From: Symbiobacterium sp.
GTDB taxonomy: Bacteria > Bacillota > Sulfobacillia > DUSP01 > DYEP01
Reading direction: 5' to 3'
Length of the DNA stretch: 34,129 bases
NCBI GenBank assembly: GCA_020725675.1
Contig: DYEP01000137.1
Coordinates: forward strand, 1-34,129
Shown here: positions 194-19,346 of the stretch, piece by piece
Layout: every line of letters starts with the position of its first letter
Position numbering within the stretch: position 1 is the first letter of the stretch
Translations under genes and position numbers: made by a program
Notes under the pieces: model-generated
What the model was told of the DNA's origin: nothing
The model's database searches: none
The model's input: only the letters and a program-made list of their open reading frames with translations

Positions 194-2674
194 TTGCAGG
201 TGGTAAATGCTCCTCCCAAATTAGCCACTGACTGCCCCGAAGAGCTGCTTAGTCTCTTTCGGGCTGTCATTGGGTCTCAGCAGGCACAACCTTTTGAGCA
301 CCAGGCAAAAGCCTGGGAGAGCATACTTGGCGGAAACAGAGTGTATCTCATTGCAGGGACGGCTTCAGGGAAAAGCCTTGCTGTTTTGATCCCGCTCATT
401 TACCAGGCAAAAGTAGACCCGCTACGCCGGATAGCGCTCCTTTATCCGACCCGTGCATTGTTAGAAGACCAGGCTACTGTCGTTCTACGCATAGCAGAGT
501 TGTGCGGACTCAGGGGTGAGGTATCTTACATCATCGGTGGAATGAAACGAACAGAGGTTCTTCATGCCCTTACCCACCGAATCATATTAGCTACTCCAGA
601 CGCGCTTTACTGGTTCTTCCGAAAGACAAGCAAGTACTCAGCACTTCTAATGTACTCGCTGACTTTTATTACCGACTTTTTGCTTGATGAGGCGCATCTT
701 ATGGGAGGACTCTCAGCCAGCAACCTCCGACATTTCCTGGAGAAGATAGCCTTCTTTCGGGAGAAGTACTTGAACTACCCTGCTGCTAGATTACACGTTC
801 TGACTGCAACACCGACGCCTTCGTCAAACCTCTTGGTGGAAGGTGTAAGCCCCATCCACGGCCGATCAAAGGTAGGCACAGTGGATTTCTCGGTAAGGTT
901 GCTCCGGGACAGAGGATCCATTGAGTTCTGGGAAACAGAGATTAACGAACAGCGGAAAGAGGGGTTTCGCCGCCTTATTGTGGTATTGAACTCCGCCCGA
1001 AAGGCGCATCAGATCTTTGACCGTACGCGCGAACATGTCATAGGATTACCTGATCTCCCTGGGGGGAGAGCACCCTTCGCTGTTCTTCTTGATAGCATTA
1101 GAGAGTTTATCACAGGAGGCTCCGCTGAGCAGAAAGATATTTTGCTTTCATTTCTTGATACGAAGAAGGCCCCAGTCTCAAAGGTAATCAAAGCAGCGGG
1201 GAGCCTAGAATGGACTATGGATGATTGGGATGTAGTACTCGAACAAGCTGGGGTCGACGTACCGAGCATTGATAGATGCGTACTGGAACGGCTGGAAAGT
1301 ATTGAGGGCGTAAACAATGCTGAAACTTGGGCTGCTTTATGGAAGGATCTCCGAGACGTCTTCGCACCAGAAGTTCTGAGTTCGCTAAAGACTGCATGGG
1401 AACACCATCTCGTTAGGCCAGGAGCAGAGCTCCTGATTAGGATACCGGATATAGTTTCAAATCAGGCTGTCTCAGAATGGGAACGAGTATTGACCACAGC
1501 TAATATAGAAGGACGTTCTCTAAAGGAGTGGCGACGCCAGATTGCTGAGCATGTCACACACCCATATATCAGGTTCTGGGATACCACACCAATGTTCCTG
1601 TATACTGGAGGAATGAGTTCGAACGATAGGGACGGTATGATCTCCTGTTTCAACAGTGACGCTTTTGAGCAGGCGATCATGGTTTCCACACAGGCAGTTG
1701 AAGCGGGCGTGGATTTTGATGCGGACTGTCTTCTTACTGAAGAATCCGATGCAAGCGCCATTCTTCAGCGCTTCGGAAGAGTAGGACGCAGAAATGCAAC
1801 AGGTACCTCGGCCCGGGTGATATTGTTCACGAGCGGTAATACGCTCGGAAGGCTTAGAGACGCTCTTTCAGAAGTTATGCAGCGGGAGGATTTCTCTCGG
1901 GTAATTGCTGAGTGCTGCAAAAACCGCGGTTTTCTGGGAAATAGTGAATATGTTGATGCCATGCACGCCGAGATCTTCCGTCAGATTGGGGTTTCTGGCC
2001 GGTCCTGGGTTAGATCTTTACCGTTTACAGAAAGAGTCATGCGCGATTCTAGAATCAAATGGGCGTACGGCTTGAGGGGGATAGGGGCTTCTGTCCAACT
2101 AAGCAGCGGAGTTATGCGAGAAGCTCTGAGCGTCCTTCCGTTGATCAATAATAAAGAGCTGATAGCTGCCGAATCGCCGTTTGTACTGGCATATGCTGAA
2201 GTTGACTTTGATACTATTGCTTGCAGGAAATGGTCTGGAAGGATCGTGGTTGACAATAGGAGCCAGTTTAATGCACTTGTAGCTGTCGCGGAGTGCTCGA
2301 CTGATGGTGTGTGGTCAGCATATGACAAAAGTTCGATCCCCTCAGAGATACTAAAGAACGGGGTCTTGCTTTGCTACGGCGGCCTTCCACTTCTGAGAGA
2401 CCTTCGCGATGGATGGGAGAGTATTGGACGATTGGAGCGTGTCTCTGACAGGAACGGCAAGTGGCTTTCGCTTCCCGAGCAGTGGTATCTTCTAATTCTG
2501 GACGCGGGTACTACAATGTCAGAACAGGTATTAGAACTGGCAAATGCCTGCGAGTCAGAGGTAGAAATGCTGGGCGGTCATGGAGGCCATGGAAGCACAC
2601 CGTGGACTTACATATTAGACAAGGGGGCAGGCGCGTGCGTCGAGATCTACCGCAGGGCACGGGAACAGACGTAA
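194..2674 (+). CDS. cas3: Cas3' helicase of a type I-D-like CRISPR-Cas system
   Basis: An 826-residue superfamily 2 helicase without an HD nuclease domain. It should be recruited to DNA-bound Cascade and unwind the target for degradation. Visible motifs: a Q-motif-like HQ at 36-37, Walker A AGTASGKS at 54-61, a PTRAL block near 85-89, DEAH at 165-168, TATPTPSS (motif III) after about residue 200, and QRFGRVGRR (motif VI) from 525. A long region between about 300 and 480 has no motif I recognise. The TTG start at 194 is chosen because GAGGGGG lies 8 bases upstream; GTG at 200 is an alternative. The next gene starts inside its 3' end. Assignment to I-D rests on the following cas10d-csc2-csc1 genes and on the stand-alone helicase form, which is normal for that subtype. 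Confidence 0.85.
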   Translation: MQVVNAPPKLATDCPEELLSLFRAVIGSQQAQPFEHQAKAWESILGGNRVYLIAGTASGKSLAVLIPLIYQAKVDPLRRIALLYPTRALLEDQATVVLRIAELCGLRGEVSYIIGGMKRTEVLHALTHRIILATPDALYWFFRKTSKYSALLMYSLTFITDFLLDEAHLMGGLSASNLRHFLEKIAFFREKYLNYPAARLHVLTATPTPSSNLLVEGVSPIHGRSKVGTVDFSVRLLRDRGSIEFWETEINEQRKEGFRRLIVVLNSARKAHQIFDRTREHVIGLPDLPGGRAPFAVLLDSIREFITGGSAEQKDILLSFLDTKKAPVSKVIKAAGSLEWTMDDWDVVLEQAGVDVPSIDRCVLERLESIEGVNNAETWAALWKDLRDVFAPEVLSSLKTAWEHHLVRPGAELLIRIPDIVSNQAVSEWERVLTTANIEGRSLKEWRRQIAEHVTHPYIRFWDTTPMFLYTGGMSSNDRDGMISCFNSDAFEQAIMVSTQAVEAGVDFDADCLLTEESDASAILQRFGRVGRRNATGTSARVILFTSGNTLGRLRDALSEVMQREDFSRVIAECCKNRGFLGNSEYVDAMHAEIFRQIGVSGRSWVRSLPFTERVMRDSRIKWAYGLRGIGASVQLSSGVMREALSVLPLINNKELIAAESPFVLAYAEVDFDTIACRKWSGRIVVDNRSQFNALVAVAECSTDGVWSAYDKSSIPSEILKNGVLLCYGGLPLLRDLRDGWESIGRLERVSDRNGKWLSLPEQWYLLILDAGTTMSEQVLELANACESEVEMLGGHGGHGSTPWTYILDKGAGACVEIYRRAREQT

Positions 2675-3348: not shown

Positions 3349-3355
3349 GAGGTGA
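3347..3355 (+). promoter_or_regulatory. Strong ribosome binding site for cas10d core
   Basis: AGGAGGTGA overlaps the stop codon of the HD nuclease gene and lies 6 bases before ATG 3362. It decides that start over the in-frame TTG at 3359. It also argues that the split between the HD gene and the Cas10d core is a real gene boundary and not a sequencing frameshift. Confidence 0.75.
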
Positions 3356-3361
3356 GCATTG

Positions 3362-5221
3362 ATGAGTTTCTTCAGAGAAGCCCTGAGCGAATTCCTGAGT
3401 AGGGACTGTCCTGTCAGTTGCACCGAAAATGCGATTCTGCAGGCTATAGTGGCGAAAGTGCACTATGCAGAATGGGGAACTGGGAAGAATCGGTTGGTAC
3501 TGATACGTTTGAGCAGACCAGTGCAAATGAGAGATGAAGTTTTCCTGGGCAATCTCTTGCTGAACAGCTTTTTGGGACGGACTGCGGCTGTTGGACTGGA
3601 GAACGCAGCAGGTCCGGGACGCTGCCTTAACTTGGCAAGTGATATTGAATCCTACTTTTACCTGGTGCGTACCGACAAGAGCCTGGACGAGCTGGCGGCA
3701 GCAGCAAAGGAAGCCTGGCTTGCTTCTCTTCCCAGTCTTTATTTCGACATGCCTGATCAAAAAAGAGGCCTCTTTGGAAGCCTGGTGAATAGACTTAACA
3801 GTTACAGGGCCAGCTTTATCCAACCCTTTCCTCTCATGGTAGTCCCAAAAGCATGGGCGAGACGTATGGAGATGGAAGTCAGACGGTATCTCATGAAAGC
3901 GATCCAGGCGGAGTGGCCGGATAGCGTGGCGAATATTCTGGCAAACATCGCCTTCTTCTACGGGACAGACGGATACGAGGTGCAAAGTCCGGTCGAATTC
4001 CTTGTGCGGTTGGTGACGCGTCACTCGATCCTTAATGGGCCAGACCTGGCAAGGGCGGTAAACCTTCCTGATGGCTACGATTTCTCTGGTTCAGGCGCGA
4101 AGGATTTGATTGCAAAATTGATAAAAGAAAACGCGTTCTACGCAGATGAGATGGGCCGGATGCTCACAGAGTTGTTGCAGGCTTTTGGGAAGAGTATCGA
4201 CTCCGGTTCACTTGATTGGCTAATGCCATATCACACTAGAAAGGGGACGATGCTTGATCTTCCCCCAGAAGAGGTACTCGATGAAGTTTTGCGCGATACG
4301 GTGATTGGTGGGCGTGTATGCTCCGCCTCCAGTCTGAGTTCGTCTCATCTTTGCAGGATGTGTGGTATTCGGGAGGCTCGACTCGAAGGCGCAACTATCA
4401 TTAGCAACGATTCGTTTACACGTTTTCACAACCAGGAGATTCACGGGAAAGACGGTAGACTGTGCATAACTTGCGCGCTGTGTGCTTACCTTCACATCGG
4501 ATTAACAGGCACTGCTACTCCTGTTAAAGGCCCTGTCCCAAAGAGAGAGAATGTTGTTTTCTTCTACTCGGATCTATCACTCAAAGAACTACTGGATCTC
4601 AAAGACAGGATCGCGGAAGAAATCGAGAGGTGGCAGACTTCGAAATCCGTTTCTTCAGAAGGCGAGAGTCCTCTGCAGAAGGCGGCCAGGGCTAGCAGGT
4701 TGGAAAGGGAACTTGAGGCTATTCTCAAAGGAACGGATGTAAGTCAAGTTCACATCTTCCCTCTTGGAATCGGTGCCAGCCCACTGAACGTTATACTGCT
4801 GCCGGAGAGTTTCTATCTTGAGTCCAAGAGGTTCCAAAAGAGCCGCTATGTTGTATCTCACATTCTTCTCTGGCTGCGTGAGCATTTAGGAGCCAATAGT
4901 AGTCTGTTCTTCAACTCACTTCCTGACCTCAGCCGCTGGGGTCTGGATTCGTCCCAACTGATGGTTGTAAACGGGTCGCCTATCGACCCAGAGTCTGAGT
5001 ACAATCGGCTCGAGTACTTAAGGGAAATTGTATGGTCGCTTAGCAGACACCGAATTAAGGAGGGGCTTAAGTACCGGATGGTAGTGGCGGAGAGGATGGA
5101 GCAAGACCCGTTCGGTACGTTTTCGCACCTGATCAGGGAGAATCTTGATTCTTTAAGTATAAGCGCGGCAGCTGATGTATGTAACAAGCTCTATGCTTTG
5201 AGGGAGGTGTTATCTGGATGA
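3362..5221 (+). CDS. cas10d: Cas10d (Csc3)-like large subunit lacking the HD domain
   Basis: A 619-residue protein at the position of the type I-D large subunit, which recognises the PAM and stabilises the Cascade. The clearest feature is a Cys cluster: CRMCG at 331-335 and CITCALC at 368-374, matching the zinc-finger region of Cas10-family proteins. There is no GGDD cyclase motif, as expected for Cas10d, whose palm domains are degenerate. No HD motif is present at the N-terminus; the preceding gene supplies it. From memory, Cas10d proteins run to roughly 900-1000 residues or more, so this one is short at both ends. It overlaps the next gene by ATGA at 5218-5221, which implies coupled translation. 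Identification rests mainly on the Cys cluster and on csc2/csc1 downstream, not on strong sequence recall. Confidence 0.65.
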   Translation: MSFFREALSEFLSRDCPVSCTENAILQAIVAKVHYAEWGTGKNRLVLIRLSRPVQMRDEVFLGNLLLNSFLGRTAAVGLENAAGPGRCLNLASDIESYFYLVRTDKSLDELAAAAKEAWLASLPSLYFDMPDQKRGLFGSLVNRLNSYRASFIQPFPLMVVPKAWARRMEMEVRRYLMKAIQAEWPDSVANILANIAFFYGTDGYEVQSPVEFLVRLVTRHSILNGPDLARAVNLPDGYDFSGSGAKDLIAKLIKENAFYADEMGRMLTELLQAFGKSIDSGSLDWLMPYHTRKGTMLDLPPEEVLDEVLRDTVIGGRVCSASSLSSSHLCRMCGIREARLEGATIISNDSFTRFHNQEIHGKDGRLCITCALCAYLHIGLTGTATPVKGPVPKRENVVFFYSDLSLKELLDLKDRIAEEIERWQTSKSVSSEGESPLQKAARASRLERELEAILKGTDVSQVHIFPLGIGASPLNVILLPESFYLESKRFQKSRYVVSHILLWLREHLGANSSLFFNSLPDLSRWGLDSSQLMVVNGSPIDPESEYNRLEYLREIVWSLSRHRIKEGLKYRMVVAERMEQDPFGTFSHLIRENLDSLSISAAADVCNKLYALREVLSG

Positions 5222-5811
5222 ATCCTGACAGGATAGACGCATTGGTAGATCACCTTTGCATGGTGCTAGACGCCATGGGTGAGATTCCGCTATCCCTTCG
5301 AGAGGCACGCGCACATCAGTTTGAAAAATACCCGAGAGAACTCCTAGCTAGCCTCGAGAAGCACGGAGGAGACCCACAACTGGCGCTGCCCGAGTGGTTG
5401 ACCCGGATACAGAGACTGATGCTGAATCCGAAGGACAAAGAGTACGGTGGTTTACAGATAGCGAACGTGCTCCAGGAGACGGAGAGGCTAAGAGGATTTA
5501 TATCAGAGAATTTTCCTCACTTCGACCGGGAGACGTTGAGGCATCTTCGGGCCAGCCTGTTGGCTAGAGTGCTTGCCACAATGGCAAATTGCTGGGAGCT
5601 GGCAAGAGCTTACTCATATTCCGATACGGGTGCTTCTGATAAGTTTACACCTGAGAGCATTAATAGGGATTTTGCCCGCAGCGTGATGGAGGAGCTACAA
5701 CGTATCCCTGAGTCACGTCGCAACGCTATCCTGGAACTAGCCAAGAAACACGTGCTCTTCCATATCCCTTACTACCGGGCATTTACGAAAGAAGGGAGAG
5801 GAGAAAATTGA
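5218..5811 (+). CDS. Small helical protein, candidate stand-alone Cas11d
   Basis: A 197-residue protein with no motif I can name. It appears almost all alpha-helical: charged and leucine-rich stretches, few glycines, no Cys cluster, no membrane segment, no signal peptide. Its place between the Cas10d core and Csc2, and its ATGA overlap with cas10d, make a Cascade small subunit (Cas11) the best guess. In known type I-D systems the small subunit is made from an internal start within the 3' part of cas10d; here the Cas10d core is short and a separate gene of fitting size follows, so this could be that C-terminal segment as its own gene. The function is inferred from position, size and helical character only. 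Confidence 0.5.
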   Translation: MNPDRIDALVDHLCMVLDAMGEIPLSLREARAHQFEKYPRELLASLEKHGGDPQLALPEWLTRIQRLMLNPKDKEYGGLQIANVLQETERLRGFISENFPHFDRETLRHLRASLLARVLATMANCWELARAYSYSDTGASDKFTPESINRDFARSVMEELQRIPESRRNAILELAKKHVLFHIPYYRAFTKEGRGEN

Positions 5812-6737
5812 AGACACTCGAATCTGCTCTGTCGCCCATTGCAAAGGTATTAGTACCCTCGGGCGCCAAGGGAAAGAACAAGGGTACACTACCGCCTGTA
5901 TTTAGCAGAAATGTAGTAACCATTGTCTCATTGAAAACGGTCACGACGCGCTTCTTACCTGTCAGTCACGAAGGCTTTTCTAATGAAACCTATGTGGATA
6001 AAGTAGACTTGCTAGGAACCAAGAGAGCGGAGTTCATCGCCCGTAAGCAAAAGGGTATAGAACGGAGGGCTCACATGAGCCTCTTTAGAGAGATGCTGGA
6101 AGCCAAGGGCTTGAAATGGGAACAGGCCTTTGAGGACAAGTTCGGGCGACCATGCGTAATCCCCGGGAGCCTCTGTGTCACTTGCTGGAATTGTTCGCTG
6201 TTTGGAGCGCTAGAGGCCGGAAAAGGCGGTACGTTCGCCAGAGTAAGGTACTTTGATACCTGGACGTTCCAATCTGCTGATGACTGTGTGGCGTCAGCTA
6301 CTTCGGAAGAAGGCCTCGGAATTGGAAATACCGTCAGTGAAGACCTGGCTCAGGCGAGAGGTGCCGATTCGTATCACCTTTACGAGTATGTGAAAGCAGG
6401 GAGCACATTTCCAGTAATTACAGTTCTGGAGTCACCAACGGCTCTAGATGTAGCAGGTATCATTATGGCCATACAACGTGCTGACGTTCATGGGTACGGG
6501 AAGTACTCTGCAAACCACGGCAAGTTTAGTACTGAGTTTGTGGCCGTAGCCGCCGGGATGCCGCGCTTTTCCGTTTTGGACCTACTAGAAGCTGGTGACC
6601 CGTCCGAGGTAAGAGCAAAGATTTCGAGTCACTCACTGGACTTTGAAACAGACAACGTTGTGATTGGGCATGACAAGATCACCGCTTTGGGCAATGCCCT
6701 TCCTGGTCTTTTTGATGAGTACTGGAGCCAGCTGTAG
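5808..6737 (+). CDS. csc2: Csc2 (Cas7d) backbone subunit, type I-D-like
   Basis: A 309-residue protein matching Csc2, the Cas7 subunit that polymerises along the crRNA spacer. Supporting features are a CVTCWNCSLFGAL block near residues 122-134, typical of the Cys-containing insertion before a LFG motif in Cas7-type proteins, and a YHLYEYVKAGSTFP stretch near 195-208 like the conserved Csc2 core. The TTG start at 5808 is preceded by AGAGGAG at about the right distance and overlaps the previous stop (TTGA), so translation is probably coupled. Csc2 followed directly by Csc1 is the diagnostic gene pair of type I-D. No truncation is evident. Confidence 0.7.
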   Translation: MKTLESALSPIAKVLVPSGAKGKNKGTLPPVFSRNVVTIVSLKTVTTRFLPVSHEGFSNETYVDKVDLLGTKRAEFIARKQKGIERRAHMSLFREMLEAKGLKWEQAFEDKFGRPCVIPGSLCVTCWNCSLFGALEAGKGGTFARVRYFDTWTFQSADDCVASATSEEGLGIGNTVSEDLAQARGADSYHLYEYVKAGSTFPVITVLESPTALDVAGIIMAIQRADVHGYGKYSANHGKFSTEFVAVAAGMPRFSVLDLLEAGDPSEVRAKISSHSLDFETDNVVIGHDKITALGNALPGLFDEYWSQL

Positions 6738-6753: not shown

Positions 6754-7500
6754 ATGAATGTTCGAAGACTGGTCTTCCGTGTCTGCGGGTACTTGACTTT
6801 GGTTCAAAGCGACTTCGGAACGGAATACAGGACATACCAGTTCATATCTTCTGAAGCTCTGTACGCCTCCTTAACTCGCGGTGCCACACGGCGTTTTGGC
6901 AGAATAGAAGCAGATATGAACCGCGACTTCCATCAGTGGTATGAGGTCAGCAGTTACCCCGTGTGGTTTCTTCCGGGTATCTTTGACGGACCGCCAAAAC
7001 GTGAAGAACACGTGTTTAATGTTGTAGATGAGCTTACTCCGTCCACAAGCGAGTATAGCAGCGTTTCAGCAAAGGGGTGGAAAGTGTCAAAGAGAACCAG
7101 CCTGCCGACATATGGGCTTATAGAGTCCATTAAGCCTGGTCAGGTATTTTCTACGGTCGGTCTGGGTGAAAAGAGACTGCTCGAGGGATTTGAAAAGGGT
7201 CAGACTTTCCTGTTAGGGAAAAAGAGGGTGATGATTCAACTCATGCACCTATCTTGCGTCGGAGAACTCCGGCCGGGTGCAGGGGAAGATGAATGCTGGC
7301 CAATACCGGTAAGACCTGATAGCCTCCGGCGGTTTACCTCGTATACAGTCCACTATGCGACTCCAGAATTCCTGATTGCCAGCGGGAAGGGGGAGGGGCT
7401 TCTATCTGCTTCAGTACTGTTAGAGGATAAAGAAGGGGCGATAGCCATTCCCGAATGGTGGCTTGAGGGGCTCACCTGGTTGAGGCAGAAGACGGGTTGA
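6754..7500 (+). CDS. csc1: Csc1 (Cas5d) subunit, type I-D-like
   Basis: A 248-residue protein that fits Csc1, the Cas5-type subunit that holds the 5' handle of the crRNA. It opens with a beta-strand-rich stretch (RLVFRVCGYLTLV) typical of RAMP folds, has a YGLIESIKPGQVF block and a FLLGKKR motif at about 150-157, which fits the Csc1 pattern of a glycine-containing strand near the middle of the protein. It starts with ATG 16 bases after csc2 and is the last intact gene of module 1. In canonical I-D loci the next gene would be cas6; only a possible remnant follows here. Confidence 0.68.
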   Translation: MNVRRLVFRVCGYLTLVQSDFGTEYRTYQFISSEALYASLTRGATRRFGRIEADMNRDFHQWYEVSSYPVWFLPGIFDGPPKREEHVFNVVDELTPSTSEYSSVSAKGWKVSKRTSLPTYGLIESIKPGQVFSTVGLGEKRLLEGFEKGQTFLLGKKRVMIQLMHLSCVGELRPGAGEDECWPIPVRPDSLRRFTSYTVHYATPEFLIASGKGEGLLSASVLLEDKEGAIAIPEWWLEGLTWLRQKTG

Positions 7501-7962
7501 TTGCGAGCACCAATCTGCCGGATGAGATGGTCACTCCTTTGCTGGGTGGAGTACTGGAGATCCAAACAGGGTCCCGATACTGCTCTTACTTTGCCATGTC
7601 GGGATTGGTAATCAGTCAGTGACGTATTGCCTTAGAGTCTCAATGCTGCCACTGGCTAAACTGTCTATGCCGTCCTTGAGTAAAGTAGTGTCCAGTATCC
7701 GCGAAACGGGGACTGAACTTATCTGGCTGTGCGTTGGCTGGATTATCGTTTCCACGAATCCGCGGAGAGTGGGTACCTGTCAGCGCTAATTGTACATCTG
7801 CGTAGTACGGGCTCTCACACCTGACGCGGGTGTGGTAAGCTATGGTAAACATGCAGGAATTTCCTAGTGTATGACGAAACTGGAATGATGGTACCTCATC
7901 CCAATCTGTAACTTCATCCCGTTGGCAATTGTTTGGCAGTTGGTCAGGAAGGGTGGGGAATA
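7501..7962. other. Gap between modules 1 and 2
   Basis: Apart from the possible cas6 tail there is no supportable gene. A 48-codon frame from ATG 7643 to TAA 7789 continues the remnant frame and looks like noise. No repeated units that would indicate a CRISPR array are present. I could not find a well-spaced -35/-10 pair, so the promoter of module 2 is unidentified. The purine-rich AGGAAGGGTGGGG at about 7947-7958 serves as the ribosome binding region of cas10. Confidence 0.5.
7526..7645 (+). pseudogene. Possible remnant of a cas6 3' end
   Basis: In frame 2, between a stop at 7523-7525 and about 7645, the translation reads GHSFAGW, then a DPNRVPILLLL stretch, then CHVGIGNQSVTYCLRV. This resembles the end of Cas6 endoribonucleases: a F.G strand, a block of leucines, and a glycine-rich G-x-G...TY-G-L-G finish. 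Here two of the expected glycines are replaced (YCLR) and no start codon or upstream domain remains. The spot is exactly where type I-D loci carry cas6. A second short frame, TTG 7497 to TGA 7622 (41 codons), overlaps the csc1 stop by TTGA but resembles nothing I know. I treat the remnant as a hypothesis based on pattern only. Confidence 0.33.
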
Positions 7963-10377
7963 GTGGACATACTTGAATACAGGACTGTTGTGCTGGCAGG
8001 GTTGTTGCATGACATTGGGAAGTTCCTTCAGCGAGGGGACTATGGGTCAATGCAGGTTCAGGGTAAGCACCCTGCCGTGTCTCAGGTCTTCGTTGACGCT
8101 CATAGAGAATTCTTCTCCAAGGTGGTCGATCCGGAGTTACTGGCGTCACTAGTGAAGAGACACCATGAAGGATCGGGCTTCCCCGAAGAGTTTCACCCAG
8201 CTGCTGCTACTGGCCGTGAGCGCACGCTCGCGTTTCTGATCAGTCGGGCCGACAATTATTCGTCGGCGGAGCGGGGGCACGGGGGCATCCGCCGGTCATT
8301 CCGTACTACTGCCCTGGCTAGCATCTTTTCTGAAATGGAGCTTCACTGCAAGGCTCCTCATACCAAGAGCTACTATTTGCCCACACCGCTTCAGCCAGAG
8401 AAGGCCTTCCCAGTTGAACAGTCCGACGTAGACCCAGTGGTACTAACCAACCATATCCGCAGTTTCGGTGAGGAGATGACAGCACTGAAAGAATGCAAGA
8501 TCTCCGTATTTGACACACTGTACTCACTGATACTGTCTTTGCTTGAGAAATATACGTGGTGTGTTCCAAGCAGCACTCAGAGCCCTACCCCAGATGTTTC
8601 TCTTTACGATCACCTGCGGACAACCAGTGCTATTGCAGCAGCACTGTACCAGTATCATGAAGAGAAAGGCTGGGATGAGACGACCATAAGAGACGATACT
8701 CTACTGAAGCTGCGGCTCATGGTGGGTGATTTTACAGGGATTCAGAAGTATATTTTCGGCATTTCTTCCACTGGGCCAGGAAGAGTCGCAAAACGGCTGA
8801 GGGCGAGGTCGTTCTATGTTAGCGCTCTCCTTGGTGCGATTGCCGACAGCATATTGGACGCACTGGATCTTCCTCCGGTCAACTGCGTCATGTGTTCTGG
8901 CGGTCGATTCTATCTTCTACTACCAAACACTGATAAGGCGCGGGATGTTGTGAAACAGAAGCAGAGAGACATCGAGGCATGGCTCTTGAAAACATACGAA
9001 GGACGAATTGCTTTGGCCATGGGCGACATAGCGTTCTGCGGTTCGGAAATGGAGCAATTTGGAGAGATACTGTACGAGGCAGATTGTGAGTTAGATCGAG
9101 CCAAAGCAAGACCGTTTTCGCAGGTCTTAACAGATGGCGAGAATTGGGACATAACTAAGTTTCAAATGTCTCTTGCTCCCCGAAGTCATGCTTGCCCGGG
9201 GTGTGGCCAAAGGCTAGCGACAGGTGACGCAGAGCTATGCACTGAGTGCTCGCGTGACCGTGATCTGGGGAGCCGTCTAGCCAATGCGCGCTACCTTGGT
9301 TTTTATAAGAATGAAAGGCTCAAAGACACCTTTGAATTATGTCCAGGTGTTTACCTGGGCGTATACAAGGAGAAGCCTCTTGCTCTGGGATCCCCTTATA
9401 AGGTAATAAAAATAAACGACACTAATCTGTCGGACCTTTACGGTTTGCCTGCCTCAACAGAGTTTATTGCCAATTACGTACCAACTTTCTCTGAACAGCC
9501 ATGCACCGGGTGCAAAGGTTGCCCAGACAGAGAATTAGCCAGCCCTGGCCAACCGAAATTCTTCGATTGCTTGGCCTATCGTGCGAAGGGCAAGGCTTAC
9601 CTAGCATGTATTAAGGCGGATGTGGATAACCTTGGTAATCTGTTTGTCAACGGTCTGCGACGTGAAGAAGGCAAAGAGGTTGTCAGTATTTCGAGGCTAT
9701 CCACCTTCAGCAGAATGCTTAACTTGTTCTTTGGCGGGGTAATCAATTCAATGATTCAAAACGATTACCCCAACTGCTATACCGTCTATTCTGGAGGCGA
9801 CGACCTGTTGCTCGTGGGTCCTTGGGACGAAGTATTGAACGTGGCAGAAAAAGTGCGTTCCGAGTTCTGCCGGTTTACAGGCAGCAACCAAAACTTGACG
9901 ATATCCGCAGGTATAAGTTTATTCAAACCACGGTTCCCGGTTTCTAAAGCCATTGAGGTTGCGGCTGAGAACCTTGAGAAAGCCAAGAGGCAGGCATCGC
10001 AGGATCCATCCAAGAACCGAATATGTGTCTTTAAGGAGCGGATGGCATGGGGTGACTATAGTTCGTTGCATGAACGAGCCAAGAAACTGGAGACGTGGGT
10101 TAATGCAGGTGTGACCAATACGGGTTTTATTCACAGGCTTCACCGGTATGCTGATCTGTACCGACGCTACAGGGATGATGGAATGCTGGATGGCTTGAAG
10201 TTCCTCGCGCTGCTTTGCTACGACATCTCCCGGAATATGCCAAGACGAGACGATCCCAGCGAGGAAAAGAGATCCCTGAGGTCTTGGGTGGAATCCCTTA
10301 TGAACCTGGAGTCGAAAGACCTGAAGCATCTTGCCTTTTTAACGACATATGCCCTGACTGCGACCAGGCCGGGCTAA
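7963..10377 (+). CDS. cas10: Cas10/Csm1, type III-A large subunit with HD and GGDD
   Basis: An 804-residue Cas10 that should carry both activities of type III effectors: target-activated single-stranded DNA cleavage by the HD domain and cyclic oligoadenylate synthesis by the palm domain. Visible are H16-D17 in LLHDIGK, an RHHEGSG motif near 68, a degenerate first palm (CSGGRFYLLL), a zinc finger CPGC at 411-414 with CTEC at 426-429, a second Cys group C514/C517/C520, and GGDD at 611-614 in a YSGGDD context. Both catalytic motifs are intact. GTG 7963 is chosen over an upstream TTG at 7933 because a G-rich ribosome binding region precedes it and the HD motif starts close after it. It is followed by csm2 17 bases downstream. 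Confidence 0.92.
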   Translation: MDILEYRTVVLAGLLHDIGKFLQRGDYGSMQVQGKHPAVSQVFVDAHREFFSKVVDPELLASLVKRHHEGSGFPEEFHPAAATGRERTLAFLISRADNYSSAERGHGGIRRSFRTTALASIFSEMELHCKAPHTKSYYLPTPLQPEKAFPVEQSDVDPVVLTNHIRSFGEEMTALKECKISVFDTLYSLILSLLEKYTWCVPSSTQSPTPDVSLYDHLRTTSAIAAALYQYHEEKGWDETTIRDDTLLKLRLMVGDFTGIQKYIFGISSTGPGRVAKRLRARSFYVSALLGAIADSILDALDLPPVNCVMCSGGRFYLLLPNTDKARDVVKQKQRDIEAWLLKTYEGRIALAMGDIAFCGSEMEQFGEILYEADCELDRAKARPFSQVLTDGENWDITKFQMSLAPRSHACPGCGQRLATGDAELCTECSRDRDLGSRLANARYLGFYKNERLKDTFELCPGVYLGVYKEKPLALGSPYKVIKINDTNLSDLYGLPASTEFIANYVPTFSEQPCTGCKGCPDRELASPGQPKFFDCLAYRAKGKAYLACIKADVDNLGNLFVNGLRREEGKEVVSISRLSTFSRMLNLFFGGVINSMIQNDYPNCYTVYSGGDDLLLVGPWDEVLNVAEKVRSEFCRFTGSNQNLTISAGISLFKPRFPVSKAIEVAAENLEKAKRQASQDPSKNRICVFKERMAWGDYSSLHERAKKLETWVNAGVTNTGFIHRLHRYADLYRRYRDDGMLDGLKFLALLCYDISRNMPRRDDPSEEKRSLRSWVESLMNLESKDLKHLAFLTTYALTATRPG

Positions 10378-10393
10378 GGGAGGAGAGATCAGG

Positions 10394-10828: not shown

Positions 10829-10845
10829 GAGGGGGAAAAGCTGAC

Positions 10846-11502: not shown

Positions 11503-12437
11503 TGAACCTATACCAGGTCAAGATTTGTCCAACATCCGATTACCAGACGCGGTGGAAGGCCTATCAACTATTCGGAGCTATGTGCTGGGCGATAAGCTGC
11601 TCTGAAGGAACTGATGCCCTGGGTGACTTCCTGAGCATGTATATCGCCGGGACCCCTCCGATCGTGTTATCTAACGGTTTCCCGGGAGACCTTCTGCCCC
11701 GCCCACATATACCCCAACCAAGATTGCCAAGGCGACTGCCGAAAGCAGACGCGGTCAGGCTCATGGCCACTTACAAAGACTCAAAACGGATTTCCCTACT
11801 GAATCTGGAGGAATTTAACTCTTTAGTATCCGGTGAACCAGTGAGTTTGCACCGACCGGACTGTGTGCCCGAAGTGGAAGTAGTGGTATACCACAACCAG
11901 ATCGATCGAGTCACCGGCAGTTCCTTAGGTGAGAGTGGACTATATCCGCAGATATCTTCCTTTCTCGCGCACCCTTCGGGATACATTTCCATATACGCCC
12001 TTATCGCGCCGGATTGGTTGGAGAGATTCACCCGCTGGCTTCAAATCGCAGGAGAAGTAGGCATTGGCGGCAGGAAGTCGACGGGGAAAGGCAGATTTAC
12101 TGTGAAGTGTATAAGGGAGTTTAATGGATTTCGGAAACCGAAAGAAGCGAACGCATATGTTGCACTTTCGGACTATGTGCCGGCGAGTGGGGATCCGAGC
12201 AAGGGGTTCTACCGGATTGCCACTGTATATGGCCGCATAGGTGGGCGTCTTGCAAGCGATGGCAGTGTATTCAAGTCTCCCGTTTTCACCTTAACAGCCG
12301 GTTCGGTAATGCTGGTAGAGGGCAATATCCGCCCCTATTATGGCCGTGTGGTGCCCGGGGTTTCTCCAAGCCACCCCCAGGTTTTCCACTATGGCCTTAC
12401 GCCAGCCGTCCCGGCGACTATCGGGGGGACAATGTGA
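11502..12437 (+). CDS. csm4: Csm4 (Cas5-type) subunit
   Basis: A 311-residue protein that fits Csm4, which caps the 5' end of the crRNA and contacts Cas10. Features seen: an N-terminal YQLFGAMCWAI helix, a HNQIDRVTG block near residues 130-138, the GIGGRKSTGKGRF glycine-rich loop near 190-202, and a C-terminal AGSV...HYGL region. The frame is open upstream to 11400, but the start at ATG 11502 is preferred since it overlaps the csm3 stop by one base (TGATG) and the residues before it are simply csm3 in another frame. A Csm5 gene, normally next, is missing. Confidence 0.85.
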   Translation: MNLYQVKICPTSDYQTRWKAYQLFGAMCWAISCSEGTDALGDFLSMYIAGTPPIVLSNGFPGDLLPRPHIPQPRLPRRLPKADAVRLMATYKDSKRISLLNLEEFNSLVSGEPVSLHRPDCVPEVEVVVYHNQIDRVTGSSLGESGLYPQISSFLAHPSGYISIYALIAPDWLERFTRWLQIAGEVGIGGRKSTGKGRFTVKCIREFNGFRKPKEANAYVALSDYVPASGDPSKGFYRIATVYGRIGGRLASDGSVFKSPVFTLTAGSVMLVEGNIRPYYGRVVPGVSPSHPQVFHYGLTPAVPATIGGTM

Positions 12438-13615
12438 TGGTGCCTTTGATTGGTCCTTCAGGAAACGCGATATCGTCACAACCGTTACTAGTGATATCAA
12501 CAGTTGGAACGAGTCTTCTTACTAAACAACTGAGACTGCACGACAATACTGACGGGTGGGATAAACGTATTCTTGACACTGCGAATTTGACTCGGCCGGA
12601 GATTGATCCAGAAACAAAGGCTAAGATTGATGAGTTAGCCGAGAGGGCTTTATCGGATCTTAAGGCTGCGGACGTAGGGCGAAGGAGGCAGTTGAGTGCT
12701 GAACTCAACGGGTTATATGGCATCTATAACGGAAATTTGGCCGGTTCTTCAAGGGATATGCATTTCCTTCAGGCGACAGATACATATCAGGGGCGAATGA
12801 CGGCAGAAGTCTTACGCGAATTCCTAAGAACTGAAGGCGTTACGGCAGACACCTATATACCGCCACGATTGTCGACTGTGGACACAGAGGCGTTCGAGCA
12901 TGGTATCAAAGAACTGATCCGATGGTGCGATGAGTGTATCCCGGGTTATAAGGACAGGGGCTACCAGGTGGTCTTCAACCTAGTGGGAGGTTTTAAAGCG
13001 GTACACTCTTATATGCACACTATTGGAATGTTCTATGCCGACCGAATTACCTACATTTTTGAGGGCTCCAACTCTTTGGTAAACATACCGCGTTTGCCTG
13101 TCAGAATAGAAGACGAGGCTTTACTCCCATATGCCACTTACCTGCTGATGATGGAAAAGGGTTATTTGTGCCCTGTTAGCTACTTGGAAGGCATTTCTGA
13201 GGTAGTAATAGACTCGGATGGTTCCCATGCGTTCCTCTCTAGCTGGGGTCAACTGCTGCTGGCCCAACTGAAGAGAAAGAAGGCCCTGTCAGAAAGACTA
13301 TTGGAGTTCCCGTATCTAGACTATGCCGAATCATTCAAAGAAGACTTTCGCAGAGCCGAGGTCGGCGATCGCATTCGTCTGCAGGAGACGCTTGCAAAAG
13401 TCTCCAAACTCCTGTCAGAACATCATGGTAGTCTTTCAGGGCTGAGAAGCGACCCGGGACTACAATATGAGGATCTAGTTAACAGCAGGCATGGCGGCAG
13501 ACCTATTGGCCACTTTCGCATCAATGATAGCATGCGTGCTACCTGTGTTAGTGTGCCTCGAGGATCACTCTTACTCAGGCGGTTTGGACCTCACTCAATC
13601 ATTGAAAGGCCATAA
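12437..13615 (+). CDS. CARF-RelE effector, Cami1-like, in place of Csm6
   Basis: A 392-residue protein with an N-terminal CARF domain of the APE2256-like type: VISTVGTS at 19-26 forms the first ligand-binding loop, and VVFNLVGGFKAV at 178-189 the second, followed by a YIFEGS strand and NIPRLPV. A middle region of about 230-290 looks like a winged helix. The last 100 residues resemble a RelE/HigB mRNA interferase: an amphipathic helical segment, then basic strands with GHFRIN (R361), R367 and a terminal FGPHSIIER (H386, R391). Proteins with this architecture (Cami1) are activated by cyclic tetra-adenylate from Cas10 and cleave mRNA on ribosomes. ATG 12437 has GGGGGG 8 bases upstream and overlaps the csm4 stop. 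The RelE call is from pattern, the CARF call is firm. Confidence 0.75.
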   Translation: MVPLIGPSGNAISSQPLLVISTVGTSLLTKQLRLHDNTDGWDKRILDTANLTRPEIDPETKAKIDELAERALSDLKAADVGRRRQLSAELNGLYGIYNGNLAGSSRDMHFLQATDTYQGRMTAEVLREFLRTEGVTADTYIPPRLSTVDTEAFEHGIKELIRWCDECIPGYKDRGYQVVFNLVGGFKAVHSYMHTIGMFYADRITYIFEGSNSLVNIPRLPVRIEDEALLPYATYLLMMEKGYLCPVSYLEGISEVVIDSDGSHAFLSSWGQLLLAQLKRKKALSERLLEFPYLDYAESFKEDFRRAEVGDRIRLQETLAKVSKLLSEHHGSLSGLRSDPGLQYEDLVNSRHGGRPIGHFRINDSMRATCVSVPRGSLLLRRFGPHSIIERP

Positions 13616-13737
13616 ATCATTATCACGCCGTCAGATGATGCCGGAGTGATAGTTTAGTATCATCCTATAGGTATCTGGCATAATCGGTCGCGGTAAATTG
13701 AGGCGCTGAAAACGGACACTGAAGGAGGTGGGTCAAT
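13616..13737 (+). promoter_or_regulatory. Gap between modules 2 and 3 with hairpin and weak promoter signals
   Basis: An imperfect hairpin (TATCAC at 13621-13626 with GTGATA at 13646-13651 and some inner pairs) could end the module 2 transcript, although no T-tract follows. CATAAT at 13679-13684 is a possible -10 box, but nothing close to TTGACA lies 16-18 bases before it. AAGGAGGTG at 13722-13730 is a near-perfect ribosome binding site for the next gene. Confidence 0.35.
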
Positions 13738-15198
13738 CTGAAATTTACTGGTCATCCGCTATTCGATGTCGGGTTGGCGACTATGGTTGCATTTGCAGGT
13801 AAACGAGACCCTGCTGAACTCACAGGTGAAGACCTCGATCGTATAGCGAAGTATATGGAAGAGAACTACGTGGTCGATCCGCTTAAGTCTTTTCTCACTG
13901 TTGCGTTTCCCAACTCAGGTTTTACAAACCCAGCGTACACAAACTCGCCCGAGAAGCGAGTGCTCTATGCGAAAAAAGTGCTCCAGGCCTACAAGGACGA
14001 AGCCCCCCGGCAGGCACGGCGCTGTGTCTTTACGGGCAAATCCACCCTTGGTGCATCATTAGATCTTGACGGCAATCTGGAGCCGGGCCGTGCCTTCCGA
14101 CAGCACATACCCATGCTCACTGGTGTTGGTGTTATCAATTTTTTCCCTGATGGTGATGCTGGATTACCGATATCTGGCGAGGCGCTGCTTGCAATTCAAG
14201 CGCTTCCGCTGGGATGTGCGAAGGCTGAAGGTAAGCTACTTGCAGTACACTGTGACGATCCGGGTCTTATGATAGGCTTCGCTAAGCAGTTCCTGGAGAA
14301 TAACCGGAAGGTGATTCACACAGCCCAGTTGGCCGGTGAGAAGAAACTCCCGGAGGCTCCACATCGAACCACTACTCTATTGATCGATCAGCTACTCAGG
14401 CTCGAAAAAGAAAGGGCGTACGCAGCCGCTGAGCGCCCTGTCTCTATCAGTGCGTATCATCTCAGCAACAGCGGCCAGGGGGCCTCGATCGCCATCTATC
14501 ACCTTCCTATGGAAGTAACTGGGTTCCTGATTGCAGCTGTCAACTCCAAGTACCGAGACGATTGGAGCAAGCTCACGGCTCGTGGATGGGAAATATCAAG
14601 AGGGAAAAAGCGCGGAGGTGACGACGAGTTTCAGCCTCGGTTCAATGTCTTGTATGACGACTTATTCAGTCTACCCGAGGGCTCTCACAGGTTTATCCGC
14701 AGGTACTTCCTGCGAGTACCCGAACGGACCAAGCTGCCAGGCGATCCCAGGTCCACCTACTCGATGCGAAACGAGGCCGACCTAATATCATGGGGTTTGA
14801 CTGAACTCTTTCTCAGGAAGGTGGTGTCAATGGATAAGCAACGCATAGAACAAATTCGTACTTTGGGAGAAAACTTGGCCCACTACGTGATCGGAGAAAA
14901 TGATCGTCGATTCTTTCACACGTTCCTCACTGCGCCTCGGTACGACGTGCTAAGGGCGGCCATGATACGGGCAAGTCTCAACCTCGTCAAGCAAGGCAAG
15001 GAACCACTGGTCAGGTTTGATCCGTTCATTGAGGTATTCGAGGAAGGCGAGGATCTGCCGTATTCCGACTGGCGCCTTGCGCGAGATCTGGTTCTGATAA
15101 GGATGATCGAGTGCCTTTATGATGAGAAATGGTTACAGGCAAACGAAGAAGTCCTGCCTGATGAAGGTGCAGAGGTAATCTCTGAACTCACAAGCTGA
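13738..15198 (+). CDS. cas8: Cas8 large subunit (Cst1-like), probable CTG start
   Basis: A 486-residue Cas8-type protein, the PAM-recognising large subunit of a type I-B-like Cascade of the Cst (Tneap) lineage. The N-terminal FTGHPLFDVGLATMVAFAG matches the conserved opening of Cst1-type Cas8. That segment is only included if translation starts at CTG 13738, which lies 7 bases after AAGGAGGTG; the next usable codons, TTG 13774 and ATG 13783, are 43 and 52 bases away and would delete it. Cst1 proteins typically carry paired CXXC motifs; here only one Cys remains at that region (RRCVFTGKS), so the zinc site seems lost. The C-terminus is helical and acidic. The gene is followed 25 bases later by cas7. 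Confidence 0.78.
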   Translation: MKFTGHPLFDVGLATMVAFAGKRDPAELTGEDLDRIAKYMEENYVVDPLKSFLTVAFPNSGFTNPAYTNSPEKRVLYAKKVLQAYKDEAPRQARRCVFTGKSTLGASLDLDGNLEPGRAFRQHIPMLTGVGVINFFPDGDAGLPISGEALLAIQALPLGCAKAEGKLLAVHCDDPGLMIGFAKQFLENNRKVIHTAQLAGEKKLPEAPHRTTTLLIDQLLRLEKERAYAAAERPVSISAYHLSNSGQGASIAIYHLPMEVTGFLIAAVNSKYRDDWSKLTARGWEISRGKKRGGDDEFQPRFNVLYDDLFSLPEGSHRFIRRYFLRVPERTKLPGDPRSTYSMRNEADLISWGLTELFLRKVVSMDKQRIEQIRTLGENLAHYVIGENDRRFFHTFLTAPRYDVLRAAMIRASLNLVKQGKEPLVRFDPFIEVFEEGEDLPYSDWRLARDLVLIRMIECLYDEKWLQANEEVLPDEGAEVISELTS

Positions 15199-15223
15199 CT
15201 ATTTCAGGAAGCGAGGGATCAAG

Positions 15224-16306
15224 ATGGCATTTGTCACAGGTACAATAGTGATCGATGCTCCGGCCTCCGCATTAAACAACCTTGGTAAGATAGAAGGCGC
15301 GATGACGGATAACAGCACAGGAGTAAAGCATATCAAGACGCGGGAGGGCGCGTATCCCTATGTATCTGCGCAAGCATTCCGATTCTGGTTGCGCCAGACC
15401 TTAGAGAACGGCCCCTGGGGTTGGAAGAGCGCTCCCATTTTCAGAGAGCAGAAAATCGCCTATACCGACGCAAACCCGCTGGAGTGGTGGGATGACGATC
15501 TGTTCGGTTACATGCGAGCTCCGTCCACCAAGGCTTCTGCGGTCAAGGCACGCGAAGAGGATCAAACAAGAGCGAACGAGACACCCGTTTCTGAAACGCT
15601 CACCCGCGTATCCCCTTTCAGGGTAAGTACACTGGTCTCCATTGCCCCTGTCGCGCTGGTGAACGATTTTGGTGTGATGGCCCGTCATGAGGGGGACCCG
15701 GTGCCGCACGAGCACCAGTTCTATCGCACGACTTTGACTGGGCTGATTTCTCTTGATCTTGGTGCTGCAGGGACGTTCACGTACCAGAAGAGGACAGGCT
15801 ATCTGAATCTGGATCAAATCCGTATCGACCGAGCAAAGAAGGCTCAGCTTGAGGAACTGTCTGAGAAGAAAGCTTACAGGCTCCCATTAAAGGAGCGCAT
15901 GACGAGAATAAGTGCACTTCTTCAGGGGCTTGCAGTAGTATGCGGCGGGGCAAAACAGAGCCTTCACTACACCGATGTCAGCCCCGATATATTGGCGATT
16001 GCCGTGACACGCTCCGGAAACCACATACTCAGTCACATATTTGGCGCGGACAATAAGGGGAAGCTGACCCTGAAATTGGATGCACTGGAGGAAGTATTCC
16101 AGGTATTCGGAGACGATCTTCTTTCGCCGGTGTACTTTGGTTGGGTGAAGGGATACATGGACGAACAAAGAAGCACTCTAGAACGCTTCGCGTCTGAGAA
16201 CCCTGGTGCAGAATCGTGGAAAGGGCGTATCATAGTGACTCATCCGGTCAAGGCAGTAAACGCACTGTGCGAGGAACTCTCGGCCAACCCGAACTGGCTT
16301 GAGTGA
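15224..16306 (+). CDS. cas7: Cas7 (Cst2/DevR family)
   Basis: A 360-residue Cas7 of the Cst2/DevR family, the crRNA-binding backbone of type I-B Cascade. Typical elements: the N-terminal strand VTGTIVIDAPASALNN, the REGAYPYVSAQAFRFWLR block at about 40-57 (the conserved KTREG-YPYVSSQA-R-WLR pattern), a DLFGYM motif near 92, a SPFRVSTLVSI strand near 130, and HQFYRT near 167. No residue loss or frameshift is visible. The start ATG has GAGGGAT upstream. It stands between cas8 and cas5 in the standard order. Confidence 0.9.
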   Translation: MAFVTGTIVIDAPASALNNLGKIEGAMTDNSTGVKHIKTREGAYPYVSAQAFRFWLRQTLENGPWGWKSAPIFREQKIAYTDANPLEWWDDDLFGYMRAPSTKASAVKAREEDQTRANETPVSETLTRVSPFRVSTLVSIAPVALVNDFGVMARHEGDPVPHEHQFYRTTLTGLISLDLGAAGTFTYQKRTGYLNLDQIRIDRAKKAQLEELSEKKAYRLPLKERMTRISALLQGLAVVCGGAKQSLHYTDVSPDILAIAVTRSGNHILSHIFGADNKGKLTLKLDALEEVFQVFGDDLLSPVYFGWVKGYMDEQRSTLERFASENPGAESWKGRIIVTHPVKAVNALCEELSANPNWLE

Positions 16307-16318
16307 GGCGATGGGGGC

Positions 16319-17023
16319 ATGAAGGTACTGAAGGTAGTGGCCGAAGGGACTGTGACGTCTTTCCGATACCCACATTTTATGATCGGTGTACAACCGACGT
16401 ACGAGATGCCACCGCCCGCTACACTTTATGGGCACATCTGCAGCAGTCTCGGAGAATGGTTCGATCCGGCGGGAGTGAAATTCGCTATTCACTTTACCTA
16501 TCAGAGCAAGTTCGAGGACGTGGAACACACTCACGTTATCGAGGGAAAGACTCAGTCAGGGAACATCAACCCGTACATAAGAGGGTTGCTGTTCCGACCC
16601 AGGTTGGTGTTATATCTAAATAAGCCTGAATGGGTCGACGCATTTCGTTATCCCAAGTACCCTGTAGCACTCGGCCGTTCACAGGATCTGTTCTCCTACC
16701 GGAGTGTAGAAATAGTTGACCTGATTCGAGGCACAAATGCCTACTTTGAACAGACGTTGGTGCCTTATGAACTGGTAAGGCATACATCCAGGGGCGTTGC
16801 TCTTCTAATGCCGCGATACCTTCGGTATGAGGAGGGTCGGTTTCCTGAGTTTGAGAGATATGTCATGTTGCGCACACGAGTACACTTCAGTGATCTGTTA
16901 GACATAACTGGGAGTCCGCTGGATTTTTGGCTGGATCCCACGTCCAACGCTGTAGAGGGAGATTACCTCGGGCTGTTTTTCCATGGGTGGGTTGAAGATG
17001 GAGAAGCCCAACTTATGGCTTGA
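16319..17023 (+). CDS. cas5: Cas5 (Cas5t-type)
   Basis: A 234-residue Cas5. The N-terminal segment, with a basic strand then FRYPHFMIGVQPTYEMPPPATLYGH-type sequence near residues 16-40, is the classic Cas5 block in which a proline-rich turn leads into a T-x-x-G helix. A YPVALGRSQDL motif near 115-125 matches the conserved G-R-S/R-D-L of the family. Cas5 binds the 5' handle of the crRNA. Unlike Cas5d of type I-C there is no sign that it processes crRNA itself. ATG 16319 lies 12 bases after cas7. Its 3' end overlaps the Cas3 start. Confidence 0.88.
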   Translation: MKVLKVVAEGTVTSFRYPHFMIGVQPTYEMPPPATLYGHICSSLGEWFDPAGVKFAIHFTYQSKFEDVEHTHVIEGKTQSGNINPYIRGLLFRPRLVLYLNKPEWVDAFRYPKYPVALGRSQDLFSYRSVEIVDLIRGTNAYFEQTLVPYELVRHTSRGVALLMPRYLRYEEGRFPEFERYVMLRTRVHFSDLLDITGSPLDFWLDPTSNAVEGDYLGLFFHGWVEDGEAQLMA

Positions 17024-19346
17024 ATCAGTTGAGTGTATTTGGGCGAAGAGCCCGCACAAGCACGGCGGCACAGGTGAATCGCTCGGTGCTCACACGTGGA
17101 GAGTCCTGTTAAACCTTAAGTCTTTGGCGCTCTTGAAGCCGTGGCTCCCGGAGTTGATAGGCTATCCTTCGCTTTGGCACGTCCTTTTCTGGGCTGCGTT
17201 TTTCCACGACTGGGGGAAGATCGCAGAGGGCTTCCAACATAGCCTGCACGGAGGAGGTGCCTGGAGGCACAGGCATGAGGTACTATCTGTGCTGTTTGTC
17301 GATTGGCTAAAAGGCTTGCTAGAAAAAGACGAAGAACTGGCGGTTGTAACAGCGATCATTTCTCATCATCGCGACGCTGACGAGTTGTCTGAGCTTTACC
17401 CACTGGGGCTTGTGGATGAAGACGATGACCCGATTCGAGATCTGGTTAGCCAGATAAATGATACGGACCTGCAAATACTTTGGCAGTGGTTTAGCCAAAT
17501 AGCAAAAGGTTGGGTTTGCCAACTGGGGTTTGATGCCTTCGGCGTGAGGTACCCTACCCACTTCCCCACTGGTGAACCCCAGGCTATTAGGGACGGCGCT
17601 CTACCTTCGATCAACAGGATGATGAAGGCCTACCTGCAGACGGCCAAAGACCTAAAGCAAGGAAGGAAACCTGACTTCGTACGGCAAGGGATTGTTTTGA
17701 GAGGCTGCCTGATCTTGAGCGATCATGCGGCCTCCGCCCATATCGGGGAGTTTAAAGGACTGACGATTTCGCGATCCGGGATTCTCACATCGCTGGGATT
17801 GGACCGGAGGGGTATCTACAGCCACCAGAGAGAGGCCATGGACGTTAACGGGTCTGCGCTACTTATAGCGCCCACCGGAAGTGGGAAGACGGAAGCCGCG
17901 CTGCTGTGGGCGGCAAACTTAAGAGAGACCAGAAACATTCAGCGCCTGTTCTACACTCTGCCCTACCAGGCCAGCATGAATGCGATGTACCAGCGCCTGA
18001 ACGCCCTGCTCCCAGGCCAGGTCGGGTTGCTCCACAGCCGGAGCGCGCTGGCTTTGTACCGGAGCCTGATGGAAGAAGAGTCAGACAGAGCAAAGGCCAC
18101 CCAGTGTGCTCAAGCGAGACACGACATGTCCCGGCTGCATTGCTACGCAGTACAAGTATTCAGCCCGTACCAGATGCTAAAGGCCGCATATCAGATTAAG
18201 GGATATGAGGCGGCGCTGGTTGATTATGCGGGGGCAGCCTTCATTATGGATGAGATCCATGCCTATGAGCCGCGCCGTCTCGCCATGATACTCGAATTTG
18301 CATCATTCCTAAAGCAGCAGTTTGGAGCACACTTCTTGATTATGTCTGCCACGATGGCTCAGGTGATTCGCAGCCGCGTCATGGAAGCACTTGGCCAGCC
18401 CGTTACGATTACCGCGTCTCAACCGCTGTTTGCCAGCTTCAGTCGCCACAGGGTACAAGTCTTGGATGGTGACATCCTGAGTGATATGGGGCTTGGGCGG
18501 ATTCGCGAGGCATTTCTAAGTGGTCTCTCAGTGCTGGTGACCTGCAACACTGTACGCAGGGCACAGGACGTTTACAATCTATTGCGGCAAGAATATGATG
18601 CAAAATCAATCATTCTTGTTCATGGACGGTTTTGCGGACGAGACCGTTTGCAAAAGGAACAGGAAATCATTGAAGCCACTGGCGTAAACAGTCCTGACAG
18701 GCGTCCAGTGATTGTGGTATCTACGCAAGTAGTCGAGGTAAGTCTCAACATAGATCTTGATGTCATATTCTCGGATCCGGCTCCTCTTGAGGCTCTGATT
18801 CAGCGGTTTGGACGAATCAACAGAGCCCGGCGCCTCAAGCATGCTTCTGTATACGTTTTCTCAGAGCCGATTGATTCAAATCAAGTATACTCGCCGGAGA
18901 TGATGGATAGAGCTGTTAACATACTACGTAGAATAAACGGGCTGGCCCTGGATGAAGGACAGGTGAGCAGTTGGCTTGATGAAGTCTACTCTGGCGACTT
19001 GCTTGAGGAATGGCAGAGTCAGTATGAGAAGGCGGCGGATGAGTTTCGAACCATCTTCTTGGCCAACCTGACGCCTTTCCACAGTGATGCCGCTCTTGAA
19101 GAGTCTTTCGACAGGCTGTTTGACGGTACTGAAGTACTCCCGCTTGCGCTCGAAAAAGAGTACAACTCTCTGAAAGCATCCAGCAGGCTTGAGGCTTCCC
19201 AACTGCTCGTACCGGTCTCATATGGTCTCTTGAACAGGTTAAAAAGGGACGGCCTAGTAATATCTCGGACCGGCGAATGGCCCAAAGTGGTGAATGTACA
19301 CTACAGCAGTGAATTTGGGCTTGAGCCCGGCAGCAAAAAACCTTAG
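16998..19346 (+). CDS. cas3: Cas3 HD nuclease-helicase of the type I-B-like module
   Basis: A 782-residue Cas3 with both domains. HD part: H32 in LGAHTWR, H70-D71 in FFHDWGK, RHRHE around 90, and ISHH near 119. Helicase part: Walker A APTGSGKT, a PYQASMN block, DEIH in IMDEIHAY, SATM (motif III), QVVEVSLNID (motif V) and QRFGRINRARR (motif VI). It should be recruited by the Cas8-Cas7-Cas5 Cascade to nick and degrade the target. ATG 16998, with GGGTGGG 6 bases upstream, is preferred over ATG 16983. It overlaps cas5 by 26 bases. No adaptation gene or array follows it; the next gene is on the other strand. Confidence 0.95.
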   Translation: MEKPNLWLESVECIWAKSPHKHGGTGESLGAHTWRVLLNLKSLALLKPWLPELIGYPSLWHVLFWAAFFHDWGKIAEGFQHSLHGGGAWRHRHEVLSVLFVDWLKGLLEKDEELAVVTAIISHHRDADELSELYPLGLVDEDDDPIRDLVSQINDTDLQILWQWFSQIAKGWVCQLGFDAFGVRYPTHFPTGEPQAIRDGALPSINRMMKAYLQTAKDLKQGRKPDFVRQGIVLRGCLILSDHAASAHIGEFKGLTISRSGILTSLGLDRRGIYSHQREAMDVNGSALLIAPTGSGKTEAALLWAANLRETRNIQRLFYTLPYQASMNAMYQRLNALLPGQVGLLHSRSALALYRSLMEEESDRAKATQCAQARHDMSRLHCYAVQVFSPYQMLKAAYQIKGYEAALVDYAGAAFIMDEIHAYEPRRLAMILEFASFLKQQFGAHFLIMSATMAQVIRSRVMEALGQPVTITASQPLFASFSRHRVQVLDGDILSDMGLGRIREAFLSGLSVLVTCNTVRRAQDVYNLLRQEYDAKSIILVHGRFCGRDRLQKEQEIIEATGVNSPDRRPVIVVSTQVVEVSLNIDLDVIFSDPAPLEALIQRFGRINRARRLKHASVYVFSEPIDSNQVYSPEMMDRAVNILRRINGLALDEGQVSSWLDEVYSGDLLEEWQSQYEKAADEFRTIFLANLTPFHSDAALEESFDRLFDGTEVLPLALEKEYNSLKASSRLEASQLLVPVSYGLLNRLKRDGLVISRTGEWPKVVNVHYSSEFGLEPGSKKP

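Follow-up and report, generated by a model that had tools for sequence, protein, structure and literature searches.

The three class 1 CRISPR effector modules that follow each other in tandem in this genome are most probably served in trans by a single processing and adaptation cassette and share its CRISPR RNAs (crRNAs), a reading derived from sequence comparison to which we assign a probability of roughly 70%. The window, i.e., the whole stretch of DNA that was analysed, is the complete contig C111 with a length of 34,129 bases, and belongs to a genome of 2.56 Mb that is 99% complete and assembled into 253 contigs. Within about 19 kb it carries a I-D-like operon (194-7500), a III-A-like operon (7933-13615), and a I-B operon (13774-19346), all on the forward strand; the modules are where the preliminary description had placed them. 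Neighboring genes within a module are separated by −41 to 25 nt and the modules themselves by gaps of 432 and 158 nt. The individual features are as follows:

194-2674, forward strand: cas3' helicase (PADLOC Cas3, 7e-131; Pfam DEAD and Cas3-like_C_2; Walker A and DEAH motifs)
2461-3348 (ORF), forward strand: cas3'' HD nuclease, encoded separately (Pfam Cas3_HD)
3359-5221, forward strand: cas10d large subunit without HD domain (PADLOC Cas10_Id, 2e-70)
5218-5811, forward strand: cas11d small subunit as a separate gene (PADLOC Cas11d, 3e-17)
5808-6737, forward strand: cas7d/csc2 (NCBIfam TIGR03157, 43.1 bits, cut-off 38)
6754-7500, forward strand: cas5d/csc1 (PADLOC Cas5d, 7e-48)
7699-7717, forward strand: CRISPR repeat relic (19/19 match to nt 17-35 of the repeat on contigs C17 and C212)
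7933-10377, forward strand: csm1/cas10 with HD and GGDD motifs (TIGR02578, 624 bits, cut-off 170; GGDD at residue 621)
10394-10828, forward strand: csm2 (Pfam Csm2_III-A and TIGR01870, both above cut-off)
10846-11502, forward strand: csm3 with the catalytic Asp34 present (TIGR02582, 231 bits, cut-off 90)
about 11505-12437 (ORF opens at 11400), forward strand: csm4 (TIGR01903, 90.8 bits, cut-off 55)
12434-13615, forward strand: CARF-RelE (Cami1-like) ancillary ribonuclease (PADLOC CARF_RelE, 6e-116)
13774-15198, forward strand: cas8b1 (PADLOC Cas8b, 3e-184; TIGR01908 above cut-off)
15224-16306, forward strand: cas7 (Cst2/DevR; TIGR02585, 159.7 bits, cut-off 72.75)
16319-17023, forward strand: cas5b (PADLOC Cas5b, 7e-56; TIGR01895, 85 bits, slightly under the cut-off of 96.7)
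16983-19346, forward strand: cas3 with HD and helicase domains (PADLOC Cas3b, 2e-194; TIGR01587 and TIGR01596 above cut-off)

All effector reading frames are open and the checked catalytic motifs are intact, with Walker A and DEAH/DEIH motifs in both helicases (cas3' and the I-B cas3) and the HD motif in cas3'', csm1, and the I-B cas3. No cas1, cas2, cas4, or cas6 was found among the scanned ORFs of the window and no CRISPR array in its sequence, so that the earlier claim to this effect holds for the genes but has to be qualified for the array by the trace at 7699-7717. Since the window is an entire contig and the assembly breaks off 193 nt upstream of cas3', the absence of such neighbors "nearby" is partly a product of this break. 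On the other side, an ArsR-family regulator (19449-20015, reverse strand) lies 3' of the I-B cas3 on the opposite strand and matches PADLOC Csa3 over its HTH region, while the window genes further downstream are ordinary metabolic ones.

The first module (cas3', cas3'' [HD], cas10d, cas11d, csc2, and csc1, in this order) contains two hallmarks of type I-D, a Csc2/Cas7d above the curated cut-off and a Cas10d-type large subunit. The latter gave no PDB match by sequence, and the sole significant structure match of its AlphaFold2 model (mean pLDDT 76) was the large subunit of type I-D Cascade in 7SBA (E 3.8e-6). Canonical I-D systems have the HD nuclease fused to Cas10d and produce Cas11d from an internal start (PMC10212523). 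Module 1 resembles them in its separate cas3', Cas10d-like large subunit, csc2, and csc1 but differs in that the HD nuclease and cas11d (5218-5811) are each genes of their own, and we therefore file it as a I-D-like variant and not as canonical I-D. Pfam detected no HD domain in cas10d, and the HD nuclease is a gene of its own in the relatives of this module as well. The true start of cas3'' is probably near 2680, beside the stop of cas3', and its residues H22, H55-D56, H78, H124-H125, and D173 are invariant in 8 homologues.

Searches recovered this split-HD variant from 5 of the 398 other genomes in a phylum sample and, partly overlapping with these, at 10 loci in named genomes when a Cas10d alignment was used as query (a single sequence retrieved none). 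Its hosts include Rubrobacter taiwanensis, Anaerolineae, a Chloroflexi MAG, and an uncultured archaeon. Type III genes adjoin some of these loci (L043, L048, and L051). In R. taiwanensis (L044, 9583-12411), Cas10d and Cas11d of the variant apparently form one fused frame of 942 amino acids.

Module 2 (csm1, csm2, csm3, csm4, and CARF-RelE) is classified as III-A by a csm1 with the cyclase motif GGDD together with csm2, csm3, and csm4, all of them NCBIfam equivalogs over their cut-offs. No csm5 is present in the locus, and a genome-wide search for the RAMP family returned only csm3 and, weakly, csm4. The slot expected for csm5 is occupied by the CARF-RelE gene, whose CARF part matches solved proteins of the APE2256 family. 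The same absence was observed for the closest relatives of Csm1 in two other genomes, G177 (42% identity) and G092 (39%), which encode csm1-4 together with a CARF-HEPN gene. In each of these two genomes, one locus unites III-A with a homologous I-B module and a single cas6/cas1-2-4-csa1 cassette; csm5 is present in the more distant III-A loci L064 and L066. Module 3 consists of cas8b1, cas7 (Cst2), cas5, and cas3 in this order, the gene set of type I-B. The preliminary description of complete-looking effector sets does not hold for III-A, which lacks csm5.

The genes for crRNA processing and spacer acquisition were found on a different contig, C90 (13,436 bases), which encodes in this order cas6, an addB-like and an addA-like gene, cas1, cas2, cas4, and csa1, followed by a CRISPR leader. 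Genome-wide, it carries the only match to Cas1 (PF01867) and the only match to Cas6 (PF10040), a result that covers these two families. The last 437 bases of C90 are 74% identical to a stretch of contig C17 that reaches the first array repeat, and because C17 runs on from this leader into an array, we conclude that C90 ends at the leader/array junction. A short ORF at the end of C90 had been considered as a transposase but was rejected, its sequence being that of the CRISPR leader. The earlier proposal that the modules share an array and a Cas6 located beyond the window is supported by these results, and the arrangement that would speak for independent systems, i.e., a cas6 and an array for each module, was not seen in the genome-wide search.

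The AddB-like and AddA-like helicase-nucleases (L005, C90, 5283-10417) sit between cas6 and cas1 as part of one overlapping operon, with most neighbors from addB to cas4 overlapping, and score far below the NCBIfam cut-offs for AddA. In relatives, their slot holds I-D effector genes, and only AddA was found within 1.5 kb in the neighborhoods of AddB homologues. Enzymes of the AddAB type feed spacer acquisition in other bacteria, and it is possible that the pair on C90 is dedicated to this task.

A single 37-nt repeat ending in ACTGAAAG is found on C17, in an array of 5 repeats that extends up to the contig end, and on C212 with 3 repeats, all of them ATAGCAATGCTCTGACCCGCGAAACGGGGACTGAAAG or differing from it by at most 2 nt. 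These arrays were recognized with a pattern derived from the repeats of relatives (a loose GTT pattern was uninformative), and six spacers had no exact match in viral contigs, so that no protospacers were found. A C-terminal remnant of csa1 and the full leader precede the array on C17 (L040, about 9567-10051 in locus coordinates), and this csa1-leader-array end is apparently a duplicate of the one on C90. Most loci of the I-D variant have a cas6 plus cas1-2-4-csa1 set homologous to that of C90 and 37-nt repeats of the same type; such a homologous cassette accompanies the variant in five other genomes. The repeats of I-D and I-B/III-A relatives share the 3' part GGGGAYTGAAA, save for one position in one genome. 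Since homologous cassettes with the same repeat type are paired in relatives either with the I-D variant or with I-B plus III-A, one shared cassette is the best reading for this genome. The trees of cas1, cas6, csa1, and cas4 interleave I-D and I-B/III-A loci with weak support and do not indicate with which of the two kinds of module the C90 cassette came.

The trace of an array in the first inter-module gap has the same orientation as csm1, which starts about 215 nt further downstream, and corresponds to the 3' half of the repeat, covering the stem-loop together with the greater part of the 3' handle, which is altered to ACTGAACT instead of ACTGAAAG. No such match is expected by chance (0 expected), and none of 100 shuffled windows produced one even with 3 mismatches. 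In G177, csm1 is preceded at a distance of 186 nt by a full array with the same orientation, and an ordinary array at this same place makes an array remnant the simplest explanation of the relic. That it instead acts as a CreA-like guide or as a Cas6 site regulating the III-A operon appears improbable to us: the match does include the stem-loop and most of the handle, and the CreTA guide RNA is made by degenerate ectopic repeats (PMC9458426), but apart from this one ectopic relic with its altered handle no clear second repeat was seen, and a CreA-type target search gave no convincing target, with best seed matches of 9-10 nt at chance level. An analogous arrangement that lends this alternative some credit is found in G376 (L024, 9626-9727), where cas6 is directly preceded by a pair of degenerate repeat-like sites, spaced by about 77 nt, that resemble a minimal, CreA-like CRISPR outside an array. 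A candidate for a second relic in the other gap (13616-13773; AAACGGACACTGAAGG) was discarded because its score did not exceed that of shuffled sequence.

If one cassette serves all three modules, the single Cas6 of C90 would cut the array transcripts of C17, C212, and C90, and Cas1-Cas2-Cas4-Csa1 would add spacers behind the leader common to C90 and C17. The resulting crRNAs, all with the 5' handle ACUGAAAG, could then be loaded by all three complexes. In the probable division of labor, the two type I complexes would target DNA, and III-A would detect transcripts, make cyclic oligoadenylate, and thereby activate CARF-RelE, a kind of enzyme that in the Cami1 family cleaves ribosome-bound mRNA (PMC11229360). 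This III-A/CARF-RelE arm may cover escape from the DNA-targeting arms.

What speaks against sharing is that cas6 and the arrays are not on the contig that carries the modules. There is also a second source of guides, because contig C40 (L012, 4-303) starts with five copies of a different, I-C-like repeat (GTCGCGCCCCACGCGGGCGCGTGAGTTGAAAC) beside housekeeping genes, the only array matched by the repeat patterns TTGAAAY/TTGMRAV. It could thus be that only one or two modules (e.g., I-B and III-A) use crRNAs of the C90 type while I-D draws on C40 or on an unassembled array, in line with relatives in which I-B and III-A share a cassette and I-D usually stands alone. We consider such specialization unlikely, given that the I-D loci of relatives use repeats of the C17 type and not I-C-like ones and that one Cas6 (PF10040) was found. 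Still less probable is a decaying accumulation of modules that were gathered by horizontal transfer and no longer have a cas6, adaptation genes, or arrays of their own, with at least one module non-functional. The array relic, the csa1 remnant on C17, and the missing csm5 would all fit such decay, but the effector ORFs with their motifs are intact, as described above, and the loss of csm5 is common to intact relatives. With a shared cassette as the preferred reading, the picture is one of a conserved processing and adaptation cassette with exchanged effectors, three of which have been collected in this genome.

The effector complexes of Pyrococcus furiosus share crRNAs. As in our case, this organism has three class 1 effectors per cell, two targeting DNA and one of type III, namely I-A Csa, I-B Cst, and III-B Cmr (PMC7192623), whereas here I-D takes the place of I-A and III-A that of III-B, and the effector contig has neither cas6 nor adaptation genes. 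Sulfolobus solfataricus likewise encodes three surveillance complexes per genome (I-A, III-A, and III-B; PMC4041471) but differs in its five Cas6 paralogues and two families of repeats, compared to the one Cas6 (PF10040) and the single main family of repeats found here. In Marinomonas mediterranea, a III-B complex uses I-F crRNAs and backs up the I-F system against phage escape (PMC5576922), but arrays and repeats there are separate for the two systems, whereas one repeat type fits all modules in the genome studied here. Sharing among multiple effectors is already known from Pyrococcus and Sulfolobus, and what is unusual is the presence of two variant modules, both of which recur elsewhere.

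A more far-reaching idea, which we offer as speculative, is a modular plug-in CRISPR in which one Cas6/repeat/adaptation cassette would drive three effectors with different mechanisms, and in which a dedicated AddAB-like helicase-nuclease in the adaptation operon would feed in DNA fragments. One of these effectors would be the split-HD I-D variant, which resembles an intermediate between I-D, where the nuclease sits on Cas10d, and other type I systems, where it accompanies the helicase. This variant occurs in Bacillota, Rubrobacter, Chloroflexota, and an archaeon and is relevant to how the nuclease moved from large subunit to helicase during the evolution of type I systems, and the clade of csm5-less III-A modules is relevant to the question of how complexes are capped and crRNA 3' ends are set without Csm5. 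Since the I-D-like and I-B modules and the RNA-sensing III-A module may read the same guides in this organism, it could give access to the rules of guide sharing and back-up in one genetic background.
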